From positions 744,001 through 808,000 of the forward strand of contig NZ_CP056123.1 of the NCBI RefSeq assembly GCF_018219155.1: a stretch of DNA of 64,000 nt, written 5' to 3'. Positions within the stretch are counted from its first letter, which is position 1; each line of letters begins with the position of its first letter. This document shows positions 39,152 to 43,779 of this stretch, piece by piece. This DNA is from Moritella sp. 24 (lineage in GTDB: Bacteria; Pseudomonadota; Gammaproteobacteria; Enterobacterales; Moritellaceae). The notes beneath the pieces were generated by a model, which was not told the origin of the DNA, searched no databases, and saw only the letters and a list, made by a program, of their open reading frames with translations. A program made the position numbers and the translations under genes.

Positions 39152-39190
39152 AAAAAGGCCCAGTACTTGTACAAGTACTGGGCCTTTTTT
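39152..39190. terminator. perfect 38-bp palindromic terminator of suhB
   Basis: Arms 39152-39170 and 39171-39189 are exact reverse complements without a spacer (AAAAAGGCCCAGTACTTGT and its complement), A-run outside left and T-run outside right. Confidence 0.92.
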
Positions 39191-39231: not shown

Positions 39232-40035
39232 TTATTTAGCTAAAGATTCAGTCAGGTGAGGACGGATCTTAGCAAGCATATCTTTAAGTACACGTGGAGA
39301 TGCAACAACTGAGTTACCAGATTTGAAGAAATCATGGCCGCCAGCGAAATCAGTTACGATTGCGCCTGATTCAGTAGCGATTAAGTTACCCGCTGCAGTT
39401 TCCCAAGGTTTTTGACCCATGCTCCAGAAACCATCTACACGACCAGCTGCTAGGTAAGCAAGGTTAAGTGCAGGGCAACCTGATGCACGTACATCAGCAC
39501 ATTCAGAGAATAATGCGCCGAAGATGTTCATGTAAGTATCTTGTTGGTGCTTCATCGTATGTGGGAAGCCAGTAGCAAGAACAGTACCTGATAAATCTTT
39601 AGCAGAACCAGCACGTAAACGGAAACCGTTTAATTGAGCGCCTTTACCACGACAAGCAGAGAAGATTTCATCACCGATAGCATCAAAGATAACAGCAACT
39701 TCAGCTTTACCTTTAACGTGTAAAGCAACAGAAATAGCAAAGTGTGGGATGCCTTTAACAAAGTTAGTCGTACCGTTTAGTGGGTCAATGATCCACTGGT
39801 AGTCTGTATCTGTACCAGTTGTAGCACCGCTTTCTTTTGCGATGATAGTATGCTCTGGGTAGGCTTTTTTAATTGTAGCGATAATAGCTGCTTCAGCTTC
39901 TTTGTCTACGTTAGTCACAAAATCATTTGTGCCTTTTTGCTCTACTTTAGTCTTGCTTGGATCACCATAAGCTTTTACGATTATATTGCCTGCGTCACGC
40001 GCAGCACGGATCGCGATTGTTAGCATCGGATGCAT
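39232..40035 (-). CDS. suhB: SuhB, inositol-monophosphatase-like protein with a degenerate active site
   Basis: A 267-residue SuhB, colinear with the E. coli protein (MHPMLTIAIRAARDAGN; NDFVTNVDKEAE). In the IMPase family the metal ligands in E. coli numbering are Glu67, Asp84, Asp87 and Asp212. Here these are Lys67 (IIAKESG), Asp84, Asn87 (IDPLNGTTNF) and Glu212 (KPWETAAG). The substrate-side Asp191 and Glu205 are Asn and Ser (ALNLAY; FWSMGQ). E. coli SuhB also joins the Nus complex in rRNA antitermination, a role that does not need catalysis. I therefore infer a non-catalytic SuhB. Codons were re-read on the DNA and confirm the replacements at 67, 87 and 212. Confidence 0.93.
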   Translation of the reverse strand: MHPMLTIAIRAARDAGNIIVKAYGDPSKTKVEQKGTNDFVTNVDKEAEAAIIATIKKAYPEHTIIAKESGATTGTDTDYQWIIDPLNGTTNFVKGIPHFAISVALHVKGKAEVAVIFDAIGDEIFSACRGKGAQLNGFRLRAGSAKDLSGTVLATGFPHTMKHQQDTYMNIFGALFSECADVRASGCPALNLAYLAAGRVDGFWSMGQKPWETAAGNLIATESGAIVTDFAGGHDFFKSGNSVVASPRVLKDMLAKIRPHLTESLAK

Positions 40036-40184
40036 ACTATTACCACCAAATTTTTGAAAGAACGGGATTTAGGGCGCGGAGTATACCAACTTTATTAAAA
40101 TGTTCAAAATTTATTTTTTCTTATTTAAAATTGCCCATATTTTTAGTTTGGCGATTGCTCCGCGTATTGTTGTTTTGCTTTAAA

Positions 40185-40226: not shown

Positions 40227-41216
40227 TTATAGATCACTGATGTACTCAAGGGATCGGATCCGCTTTTGCTCTGTGGCATTAAAGTGTGCGTCTCTTAACT
40301 CATTTATATGTGTTTCTTTATTTAAGTTACTGTCATCGTTGAGAATTACTTTTCTCTGCGCTAGATATGAATTTACTTTGCGATTAAATCGCGCTTCTTG
40401 CTGTTCTAGGGCTGTCATTCTTACTGCGGCCTCTGACCCGAGTAATGCTTCATACGTGATATAACGTTGTTGTGCATCATCATTACTCGCTACTTGATTG
40501 AGTTCGGCAGAGATAAGATCATCTTGATAAACGCGACTAATCTCATCGGGCATATTCGACAACTCTTCTTTTAATAGGTAGTTGTAATCAACTTGAGATA
40601 CAGAGATTGCTTGTAATTGTTGTTTTTTTATAGTGACTTGTCGATGTAGATTCTCGTTATTAAAGAGTAACGTTTGCTCTTCAGGGCTAAATAACGCCAA
40701 CTGTTTACTCCTTAATTCACTATCGAGGCGTTCTAAATCATCAATACTGGGTGCGCTGTTTATGTCTATCGAGAGTAAAGACTGTTTATATAAAAGGAAG
40801 CGTTCGAATAAATCATAGTCTGCTGAACTGTAGTGTTCAGGGCTATTTGTAATGAACTTTTTGACGTTCATTTTTAAGTGTTCGATATCTGTTTCTGTTT
40901 CTGTTTCATTAAAACCCGATAAAAAATAATCAAACATATCGCGTAATGAGGCCTGATCAATCTCAGTGTCTTGTTGAGATACGGCTTGAATTGAAGCGTT
41001 ATCGATTCTGATGATTGACGGTATTATTTTTTTATCTTTGCTTTTTAGCACTATCTCTCCGTTATGCTGTACTGCTTCTATTCTTTTTGTTTTGGAATCA
41101 ACTGCGGGATTAATGATGACGATAGTTTGTTTATGAATCGGATCATCGATTAACTTTATATAGGCTACACTCGCAGCCGCGGTGATAATTGTGATTGCTA
41201 GCGTAGCCTTTTTCAT
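40227..41216 (-). CDS. lipase-specific foldase (secretion chaperone)
   Basis: A 329-residue protein anchored by an N-terminal helix (about residues 4-22). LRDMFDYFLSGFNETE at about 89-104 is the lipase-chaperone RxxFDY(F/C)LSA motif. The rest is a long, helical, highly charged lipase-embracing arm (many Q, E, R; ARFNRKVNSYLAQRKVIL and the RDAHFNATEQKRIRSLEYI end). Such foldases (Lif) fold the partner lipase in the periplasm before type II secretion. It starts two bases after the lipase stop, so the pair is an operon. Confidence 0.93.
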   Translation of the reverse strand: MKKATLAITIITAAASVAYIKLIDDPIHKQTIVIINPAVDSKTKRIEAVQHNGEIVLKSKDKKIIPSIIRIDNASIQAVSQQDTEIDQASLRDMFDYFLSGFNETETETDIEHLKMNVKKFITNSPEHYSSADYDLFERFLLYKQSLLSIDINSAPSIDDLERLDSELRSKQLALFSPEEQTLLFNNENLHRQVTIKKQQLQAISVSQVDYNYLLKEELSNMPDEISRVYQDDLISAELNQVASNDDAQQRYITYEALLGSEAAVRMTALEQQEARFNRKVNSYLAQRKVILNDDSNLNKETHINELRDAHFNATEQKRIRSLEYISDL

Positions 41217-41218
41217 GA

Positions 41219-42190
41219 TTATAAGCCTTGTAGTTTCAATCGGTTTGCGTGTTGACGGTAAATACTTGGTACAGACAAGAATAAAGCGGTATGCCCCAGT
41301 ACCTGATTAATTTCATCAACATGATTCATGCGGTAGCTATCGTTGATGACTTTGCCTAAGTGCGTACTGCAAACACCAACCATGCCATCATTTGCTTCAC
41401 CACCTAACCATGATGAACCGAAAGCAAGTAAGCTCACTGCTTTTAGTGGAGCATCAACAAGTGCATCTTTTGGACTCGTCATTAATCGACTACCACTCCA
41501 AGAGTAATAATACACCTTGTGCTGGATGCCGTTGACTGTACTTGTTACTACAGGGTCACCTTGACCACATGCTGTTGTAGGTACACCCTCTGGATATTTT
41601 TTATTGAAGGCGAGAGACTCATGTGTCGTTAATGCTTTTAAAGCCCCTTTAGCATTGACTGGAAGTGTCGAACCGCTCGATAGATATTGTGTTATTTTTG
41701 ATAAATAGCCAATAACACTTGAACTTGCACTATTAACTAACGTGCCATCTGGCGCCACGCTATAAAATAAATCTGCGAACTTAGATCCTTTATTCACACC
41801 ACCAATACTGGTTACTGATGCAACGAGCTCTGGGGCGACAGATGCCACGTATCGAGACGTTGGACCGCCGTGGCTGTGACCTATTAAATTCACTTTGCTT
41901 GCGCCTGTACGCGCTAAAAACTGTTTAACTTGCAGTAAAAGCTGCTCGCCTCTAATTTCAGTTGTATTGGTTGATGATACTTGAGCGGTATAAACCGTTG
42001 CACCGTTTTGTCTTAGTGTTTGCGCTATTTTATAAAAATAGTCATAGCCTTGAATATCATCAAACCCTAAAAAACCATGTACAAGTACAATCGGGTATTG
42101 TGTATCTGTATAATTTCGATTGGTTGCAGCATTTGCATAATTGAGTAAGGTTGTTACTAGCATTATTGTGACGAACATTAAGCGTTTCAT
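41219..42190 (-). CDS. secreted triacylglycerol lipase (family I.1/I.2)
   Basis: From ATG 42190 (AAGGA eight bases upstream) the product is 323 residues with a signal peptide ending ANA (residues 1-21). YPIVLVHGFLGFDDIQGYDY gives the oxyanion region, Ser106 in NLIGHSHGGPTSRY is the nucleophile, and NHVDEINQ holds the likely catalytic His. It resembles Pseudomonas and Burkholderia lipases, which need a foldase like the one encoded next. It would release fatty acids outside the cell. An upstream in-frame start at 42226 lacks a signal peptide at its N-terminus and is less likely. Confidence 0.94.
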   Translation of the reverse strand: MKRLMFVTIMLVTTLLNYANAATNRNYTDTQYPIVLVHGFLGFDDIQGYDYFYKIAQTLRQNGATVYTAQVSSTNTTEIRGEQLLLQVKQFLARTGASKVNLIGHSHGGPTSRYVASVAPELVASVTSIGGVNKGSKFADLFYSVAPDGTLVNSASSSVIGYLSKITQYLSSGSTLPVNAKGALKALTTHESLAFNKKYPEGVPTTACGQGDPVVTSTVNGIQHKVYYYSWSGSRLMTSPKDALVDAPLKAVSLLAFGSSWLGGEANDGMVGVCSTHLGKVINDSYRMNHVDEINQVLGHTALFLSVPSIYRQHANRLKLQGL

Positions 42191-42468
42191 TTTACCATCC
42201 TTAGATTGCCATTTATTTGAAATCATTGAACTTTATTGTTCATCGTTATGGTGTCATATTAAGAATAGGAAAAACGTAAGCAGACGTAAGCTAGAGTAAG
42301 AGTTGTAAGTCAAGGTGGGGATGATATTGAAGCGAGATATACCTCGTATACTGTGATAGAATTCGCGACCAGTAAATTAACAATTCCAATAATAGTCTGA
42401 ACGGTGGTTTAAACACGAGGTTTAAATTTTCCCAGTTTTACTATTATGCGTCTTTTTAGGTATTAATA

Positions 42469-43185
42469 ATGTTAGCAAACGTAAAAGTTGTATTAGTCGG
42501 TACATCTCACCCAGGTAATATTGGTTCGGCCGCTCGCGCCATGAAAACAATGGGTTTAACGCAATTAGTGTTAGTTGCGCCTCTTTGTGAAATTGATGAA
42601 AAATCAGTTGCGTTGGCTGCTGGTGCCGCAGATGTACTAGAAAATGCGATCATCGTCGATACCTTAGAAGAAGCGGTAACAGATTGTGGCCTGGTGATTG
42701 GCACAAGTGCACGCTCTCGTACATTGCAGTGGCCAATGCTAGATTCACGTGAAGCGGGCTTGAAGCTAATCGAAGAAGTGCCTAACTATCCTGTTGCATT
42801 AGTATTTGGTCGCGAACGTATTGGCTTAACCAATGATGAACTACAAAAATGTACTTACCATGTATGTGTTTCTGCAAATCCTGAATATAGCTCATTAAAC
42901 CTCGCAATGGCTGTACAGATTTTAACATACGAAACACGTATGGCTTATCTGGCGACAAACTCGTTCCCAGAACAAGATAATCCGTATCCAAAGCAAGCTG
43001 AATTGGAAATGTTCCATACGCATCTTGAAGAGACGTTATGGGATTCTGGTTTTATCAATAAAGCGCATCCAGGTGTGGTTATGAATCGTTTACGTCGACT
43101 CTTCACTCGAGCTCGTCCAGAAACCGTTGAATTAAATATTCTACGTGGCGCATTAGTGTCTATTCAACGTAATCTGAAAAAATAG
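42469..43185 (+). CDS. trmJ: tRNA (cytidine/uridine-2'-O)-methyltransferase
   Basis: A 238-residue SPOUT methyltransferase. The start [20 protein letters not shown] and the knot motifs [16 protein letters not shown] and [14 protein letters not shown] are typical of TrmJ. It methylates the 2'-O of C/U32 in tRNA. The C-terminal [13 protein letters not shown] region contacts tRNA. It precedes iscR as in E. coli. Between it and suhB sits the lipase pair, which is not the E. coli arrangement. Confidence 0.96.
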
Positions 43186-43305: not shown

Positions 43306-43779
43306 ATGCGATTGACATCGAAGGGACGTTACGCCGTTACGGCTATGATCGACCTTGCATTGCACGCAGAAGTGAAACCTGTGCCATTAGCTGAAATATC
43401 GGAACGACAAAGTATTTCACTGTCGTATTTGGAGCAGCTATTCTCTCGATTACGTCGAAAGAAGCTAGTAGCAAGTGCAAGAGGACCCGGTGGTGGCTAC
43501 AAGTTAGGTATGTTACCTGGGGACATTTCTGTTGCGATGATCATTGATGCAGTAGACGAGAATGTAAAAGCGACCAAATGTGATTCTACAGGTGGTTGTA
43601 ATGATGGAAAACGCTGTTTAACGCATTCACTTTGGGATGATTTAAGTGAGCGAATTAGTGATTTTCTTGATAACATATCGCTTGCTGATTTGATGAAAAA
43701 TAATGAGATTAAGCAGATGGTCAATGATCAAGATCATAACCGCCAAGTATTAAATAAAATTGATATCAATATCATTTGA
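43306..43779 (+). CDS. iscR: Fe-S cluster regulator IscR
   Basis: A 157-residue Rrf2-type winged-helix regulator. The DNA-binding domain opens with [20 protein letters not shown], and the [2Fe-2S] ligands Cys92, Cys98, Cys104 and His107 sit in [17 protein letters not shown]. Holo-IscR represses the isc operon when clusters are plentiful, and apo-IscR activates other genes. Two type-1 sites lie 38-87 bases upstream, so self-repression is likely. It heads the operon and is 95 bases before iscS. AGAGG serves as ribosome site. Confidence 0.97.

Follow-up and report, generated by a model that had tools for sequence, protein, structure and literature searches.

Background

The widely conserved protein SuhB serves both as an inositol monophosphatase (IMPase) and, in an unrelated function, as a Nus factor in the transcription of rRNA, and how much the phosphatase site weighs for the rRNA role is a question that goes beyond laboratory mutants of Escherichia coli. 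In the IMPase family E67 and D84 each bind two metals, D87 and D212 bind one each, and T89 helps to activate the water (residue numbering throughout is that of E. coli SuhB). The E. coli D87N protein loses phosphatase activity and keeps the transcription role, and the R184I protein loses complementation. Metal and phosphate ligands of the same kind, among them a strictly conserved Asp whose equivalence to D212 is our own assignment, are given for the family in the portion of PMC5516325 on which we draw, which also defines SuhB motif 5 as two Arg followed by GSAAL. Passages in two papers describe the suhB phenotype in E. coli as independent of IMPase activity (PMC6614801, citing Chen and Roberts 2000; PMC4807359, citing its reference 35). 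Likewise, a passage of PMC5725501 describes repression of E. coli suhB by the Nus complex through a boxA located six bases before the Shine-Dalgarno sequence, and suhB, marked as borderline, appears among the ancestrally essential genes of Enterobacteriaceae in a part of a transposon study (PMC11481867). A literature search, with most subscription journals outside its reach, returned no paper pairing SuhB with pseudoenzyme, D87N or Moritella.

Results and discussion

A SuhB orthologue with altered metal ligands in Moritella

The DNA analysed here, hereafter the window, is a stretch of 64,000 nucleotides from Moritella sp. 24 (contig NZ_CP056123.1, positions 744,001 to 808,000 of the forward strand), and its translation contains a complete SuhB (Table 1). 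Residues 1-265 of E. coli SuhB align with this protein without gaps, and it scores 393.5 bits with the SuhB equivalog model NF008027, above the cut-off of 332, and 225.2 with PF00459 (cut-off 27). The open frame is full-length in all 11 Moritella genomes of our sample, which comprises all those returned by searches of the genus and the family. On the upstream side of the window gene, beyond a lipase-foldase pair, lie genes that we take to be trmJ, iscR and iscS, and because of this neighborhood, which is presumably also the gene order in E. coli, we regard the window gene as the suhB orthologue and not a paralogue. The intervening pair, a lipase and its chaperone (PF03280), occupies window positions 40227-42226 on the minus strand; across the genus trmJ directly adjoins suhB in 7 of the 11 genomes and the lipase-foldase pair is found on that side in the other four. 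Outside Moritella, trmJ is near suhB in 14 of 15 loci from named contigs, and it was absent within 1.5 kb around suhB at the six loci examined from the nearest family (f25). Motif 5 in the form RRxGSAAL was not matched in the window protein, which reads RASGCPAL at this place; this motif is a typical rather than an indispensable feature of SuhB.

Table 1. Positions of suhB, its altered codons, its leader elements and its conserved neighbors in the window
Position	Strand	Feature	Evidence
39152..39189	-	Intrinsic-terminator-like hairpin of 17 pairs, 3' of suhB	
39232..40035	-	suhB CDS, 267 aa, active site apparently dismantled	Translation, profile and alignment
39400..39402	-	Codon 212, GAA, Glu; metal-ligand Asp in E. 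coli	Alignment, codons
39421..39423	-	Codon 205, AGC, Ser; substrate-side Glu in E. coli	Alignment, codons
39463..39465	-	Codon 191, Asn; Asp in 173/173 other Enterobacterales SuhB, Asn in human IMPA1	
39484..39486	-	Codon 184, Ala, dimer core; Arg in 169/173 other Enterobacterales SuhB	
39769..39771	-	Codon 89, Thr; His or Asn in 8/11 Moritella	Alignment, codons
39775..39777	-	Codon 87, AAC, Asn; metal-ligand Asp in E. coli	Translation, alignment, codons
39784..39786	-	Codon 84, GAC, Asp, retained metal ligand	Translation, alignment, codons
39835..39837	-	Codon 67, AAA, Lys; metal-ligand Glu in E. coli	Translation, alignment, codons
39904..39906	-	Codon 44, Asp; Glu in 8/11 Moritella	Alignment, codons
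40043..40047	-	Shine-Dalgarno-like GGTGG	
40051..40063	-	boxA-like GTTCTTTCAAAAA in suhB leader, identical in 11/11 Moritella, one mismatch to GYTCTTTAANA	
40080..40107	-	Promoter-like TTGAAC-16-TATACT, 5' to the boxA-like site; weak, as 3 were found in the region against 2.8 expected	
42469..43185	+	trmJ, conserved suhB neighbor	SpoU methylase family by Pfam; gene name presumed
43306..43779	+	iscR, conserved neighbor	Name presumed from sequence and gene order

Alignment of the window protein to E. coli SuhB gives K67, E68, D84, N87, A184, N191, S205 and E212. The replacements at 67, 87, 191, 205 and 212 and the retention of D84, which the original prediction had read from this DNA, are all correct, and A184 in place of R184 is a further change absent from its list. 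Its statement that only Asp84 of the four metal ligands is kept holds literally, but it overstates the loss at 212, as E212 still carries a carboxylate. In place of the E67/D84/D87/D212 set of catalytic inositol monophosphatases all 11 Moritella proteins have K67, D84, N87 and E212, and A184, N191 and S205 are likewise common to the whole sample. The codons are AAA at 67, GAC at 84, AAC at 87, GCN at 184, AAC or AAT at 191, AGC at 205 and GAA at 212 (n=11), and this agreement between 11 genomes rules out sequencing error as the source of the changed residues. Four named public Moritella contigs carry these fixed residues too, but they appear to come from assemblies already among the 11 and were left out of all counts. 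Other sites differ within the genus: the same eight genomes have T89 replaced by His or Asn and D44 by Glu, whereas the three that keep D44 and T89 include that of the window, and E68 is present in 6 of 11.

The closest described system, E. coli SuhB (PDB 6IB7, 6IB8 and 6TQN), resembles the Moritella protein as an orthologue that is gapless over 265 residues, with the same predicted fold, K251 and L254, the same neighbors (as far as the presumed E. coli order goes) and, ahead of the gene, a boxA in E. coli and a boxA-like site in Moritella. It differs in being an active IMPase with E67, D84, D87 and D212, as against K67, N87, E212, A184, N191 and S205 in Moritella.

Conservation of the changed positions in other SuhB proteins

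The Enterobacterales set consisted of 184 SuhB, of which 11 are from Moritella, 15 from named contigs and 158 from further genomes, the last being hand-picked from 374 non-Moritella genomes with a match among 394 searched. Among the 173 sequences other than those of Moritella, a selection that favours odd and reduced genomes and hence overrepresents rare states, E67 is found in 166 (6 Lys, 1 Thr), D84 and D87 in 170 each, T89 in 166, D191 in all 173, E205 in 170 and D212 in 159 (11 Glu, 2 Asn, 1 Ala). A class-wide search of 104 genomes gave matches in 97 outside Moritella, and 69 of these, belonging to other families, supplied a second set of SuhB. Here D84, D87 and T89 are each present in 69 of 69, D212 in all 68 having a residue at that place, and E67 in 68 of 69, the one exception (L280) being unsure as its match begins at query residue 72; E205 is retained in 59 and replaced in 10. 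Positions 67, 84, 87 and 89 are close to fixed and position 205 drifts. Free variation of these residues in relatives, which the original prediction had itself named as speaking against it, is ruled out by the 173 and 69 SuhB for the near-invariant E67, D84 and D87, but not for 205 and 212.

Not every replacement carries the same weight. In human IMPA1 the residue corresponding to D191 is Asn, so that N191 does not stand as a sign of loss and D191N is ruled out as a contributor to inactivation; similarly, S205 fails as a diagnostic residue given the replacements of E205 in the class-wide set. D212E combined with otherwise intact metal ligands was observed in nine SuhB (L054, L059, L061, L066, L070, L071, L182, L183 and L113), eight of them from the nearest family and one from another. 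As D212E occurs together with the other metal ligands in these proteins, E212 may be tolerated, and neither S205 nor E212 is decisive on its own. That Moritella and the nearest family inherited D212E from a shared ancestor is unsupported, as within that family D212E is nested inside one genus in a FastTree tree with many weak branches.

Focus of change, predicted fold and selection

As a reference for fixed positions we used 166 SuhB, excluding those of Moritella and seven other damaged SuhB (see below), and a threshold of at least 97% for one residue. This defined 46 positions, of which 37 are unchanged in Moritella and nine are changed, six in all 11 genomes (67, 87, 119, 184, 191 and 205) and three in some (44, 68 and 89). 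The changed positions account for 8 of 14 in a set comprising the active site and R184 as against 1 of 32 among the rest (Fisher p 9e-5), and for the window protein alone the corresponding counts are 5 of 14 and 1 of 32 (p 0.007); the 14-residue set was named after the changes were seen and the 166 SuhB were partly picked by these residues, so that these p-values are descriptive and not tests. Judged by these alignments, change in Moritella SuhB appears to be concentrated on the active site.

An AlphaFold2 model of the window protein, built with 63 sequences, has a mean pLDDT of 94.6 and a pTM of 0.92, and among PDB entries it is most like E. coli SuhB as seen in the crystal with NusA AR2 (TM 0.98) and in the rrn antitermination complex, a likeness to be read in view of the bias of alignment-driven structure prediction towards the family fold. 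The intact fold that had been proposed from the sequence is thus borne out in prediction. Within Moritella suhB has a median pairwise dN/dS of 0.138, nusA one of 0.043 and cysQ one of 0.056; in the nearest family the suhB values are 0.072 in genus g35, about half that in Moritella, and 0.050 in genus g25. Leaving out 20 active-site codons brings the Moritella suhB value only down to 0.113. Moritella suhB is under purifying selection that is somewhat relaxed. With its fold kept in prediction, its catalytic residues lost and its gene under selection, Moritella SuhB would qualify as a pseudoenzyme.

NusA contacts, boxA and the suhB leader

The residues that contact the AR2 repeat of NusA, K251 and L254, are kept in all 11 Moritella SuhB. 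Their partner has 499 aa with two C-terminal repeats (TIGR01954), AR1 and AR2, and within the genus it varies at 5 of 69 columns in the AR2 part and at 35 of 430 before it. An exact boxA, TGCTCTTTAACAA, is present in all 11 Moritella genomes, while the same string read backwards, as a control, occurs once in all 11 together. Four of the five exact copies in the genome of the window lie 198-214 nt upstream of a 16S gene; around the fifth (L238, C1:523903-523915, minus strand) no rRNA gene was found in 2.7 kb.

In the Moritella suhB leader the boxA-like GTTCTTTCAAAAA lies three bases upstream of the GGTGG. Between the -10 region and the start codon the leaders of the 11 genomes are near-identical throughout, and conservation alone therefore does not single out the boxA-like site. 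At -45 to -12 a GYTCTTT core is found in 133 of the 163 intact SuhB with enough leader, in all 11 Moritella and in four of the seven damaged SuhB, as against 1/163, 0/11 and 0/7 for the reversed core; the full GYTCTTTAANA is present in 87 of the 163 intact leaders, in none of the 11 Moritella and in one of the seven damaged. A boxA scan of the whole window allowing two mismatches gave chance numbers (10 found against 9.7 expected) and did not include the suhB site, and the argument for this site thus rests on its place and its conservation.

Other IMPase-family genes in Moritella

A second IMPase gene, for which the original prediction had advised looking, was sought in the genome of the window, and three other PF00459 genes were recovered (L002, L003 and L004). 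Two are CysQ proteins above the TIGR01331 cut-off and the third is below every cut-off; unlike SuhB, with which they share the Pfam family, all three keep the EE, DPLDGT and WD motifs, and the first CysQ keeps them in all 11 Moritella. The presence of three intact paralogues therefore makes the loss specific to SuhB. L004 (1480-2424) codes for a 314-aa PF00459 protein that reaches no NCBIfam cut-off, and its gene has a 4-base overlap with the preceding one. Inositol-1-phosphate synthase (PF01658) was not found in any of the 11 Moritella genomes, whereas 6 of 14 control genomes were positive, and this absence fits with there being no need for an IMPase.

A probable natural pseudo-phosphatase and the alternatives to it

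We consider it highly probable that the SuhB of Moritella, as a naturally occurring pseudo-phosphatase, functions solely as a Nus factor. The three-metal phosphatase site would have been dismantled in the common ancestor of the sampled Moritella: K67 takes the place of a Glu that binds two metals, Asn and Glu replace two of the three Asp ligands, and the water-activating Thr89 is also missing in most species. Since K67, N87 and E212 leave every metal site with a ligand lost or altered and a positive charge is introduced, catalysis should fail. The scaffold would be retained because the cell needs it to bind NusA and boxA RNA and to aid the loading of NusB/E on RNA polymerase during rRNA transcription. 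We infer both the absent phosphatase activity and the working antitermination role. The separation of function put forward in the original prediction is supported to this extent, with near-invariant residues lost and with the predicted fold, the NusA contacts, the boxA and purifying selection remaining. As in the IMPase-defective E. coli SuhB that supports growth, and in D87N, the phosphatase would be lost and the other function kept; those are laboratory mutants, whereas the Moritella protein is natural, genus-wide and altered at several positions.

The proteins may still bind metal weakly or retain some activity, as D84 and E212 are present in all 11, E68 in six, and D44 together with T89 in three. 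A phosphatase whose site has been re-made around D84, E212 and E68 for a different metal or substrate is nevertheless improbable. The retention of D84 and of a carboxylate at 212, the nine D212E proteins with their other metal ligands in place and the identity of N191 with the human IMPA1 residue would all suit such an enzyme, but K67 puts a positive charge where a ligand of two metals stood, N87 removes another ligand, T89 is gone from 8 of the 11 genomes, and the differences at 44, 68 and 89 within the genus look like those of a decaying site. Alternatively, the whole gene might be decaying towards a pseudogene, with both functions fading, and the median dN/dS of 0.14, higher than that of nusA, cysQ or the suhB of genus g35, points in this direction. 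The full-length frame in all 11 genomes, the 37 of 46 near-invariant positions left unchanged, and the AR2 contacts and leader kept throughout make this very unlikely.

The main doubt about a protein acting solely in the Nus complex comes from A184, found in all 11 Moritella. R184 belongs to the dimer core and R184I abolishes complementation in E. coli, and for these reasons A184 could alter the transcription role; harm is made less likely by the E. coli R184A protein, whose dimer closely resembles the wild type. This R184A protein has been crystallised (2qfl). The fixation of K67 and A184 in 11 genomes, along with the altered RRxGSAAL motif, might also be taken for signs of a new third role, such as sensing a ligand or forming an altered dimer, in place of the old Nus role only. 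We give this little credence, as no feature indicates a particular new role and the old one is favored by synteny, NusA and boxA. If Moritella SuhB is indeed a pseudo-phosphatase, the annotation 'inositol-1-monophosphatase' can mislead even for a strong orthologue.

Other damaged SuhB proteins

Seven more SuhB with lost metal ligands were detected (L091, L095, L141, L176, L178, L181 and L204), and together with Moritella these genomes, some of them reduced, offer natural proteins for testing the role of the phosphatase site directly. L091, L095, L176 and L204 belong to one family, with genomes of 1.2, 1.1, 0.8 and 1.0 Mb respectively; the genome of L141 measures 2.9 Mb and that of L181 1.7 Mb, and L178 comes from a draft genome that is 89% complete. 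As in Moritella the gene is kept and metal ligands are lost, with E67 changed in all seven and to Lys in six. They differ from Moritella in the combination of losses and, in several cases, in decay also outside the active site: the replacements center on the active site in L095, L178, L181 and L204 (p 0.006-0.02) and not clearly so in L091, L141 and L176. Position 251 is Lys in six of the seven and 254 is Leu in five. The GYTCTTT core is missing before suhB in three of the four genomes of 0.8-1.2 Mb.

On a FastTree tree built without the active-site columns K67 requires at least four changes; the four reduced-genome sequences cluster on this tree, which has many weak branches, possibly through long-branch attraction. 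The Lys67 codon is AAA in the six non-Moritella K67 genes as well as in Moritella, with GC3 values of 0.13-0.37 in the former and 0.30 in the latter. We refuse E67K as proof of adaptive convergence, given the low GC3 and that AAA is a single G-to-A step from GAA; Lys at 67 may be due wholly to mutation bias. A more speculative scheme, which we hold to be doubtful, is that loss of catalysis in SuhB recurs once inositol phosphates are useless, with Glu67-to-Lys as the preferred first step, the Lys ammonium in the empty metal site holding the remaining carboxylates without Mg2+ and thereby freeing the Nus scaffold from control by metal and substrate.

L141, and also L216, encode a SuhB with K67, A89 and N212 that still adjoins trmJ and has a boxA-like leader. 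Two genus-mates of L141 (L142 and L146) have retained the ligands, suggesting a recent loss in L141.
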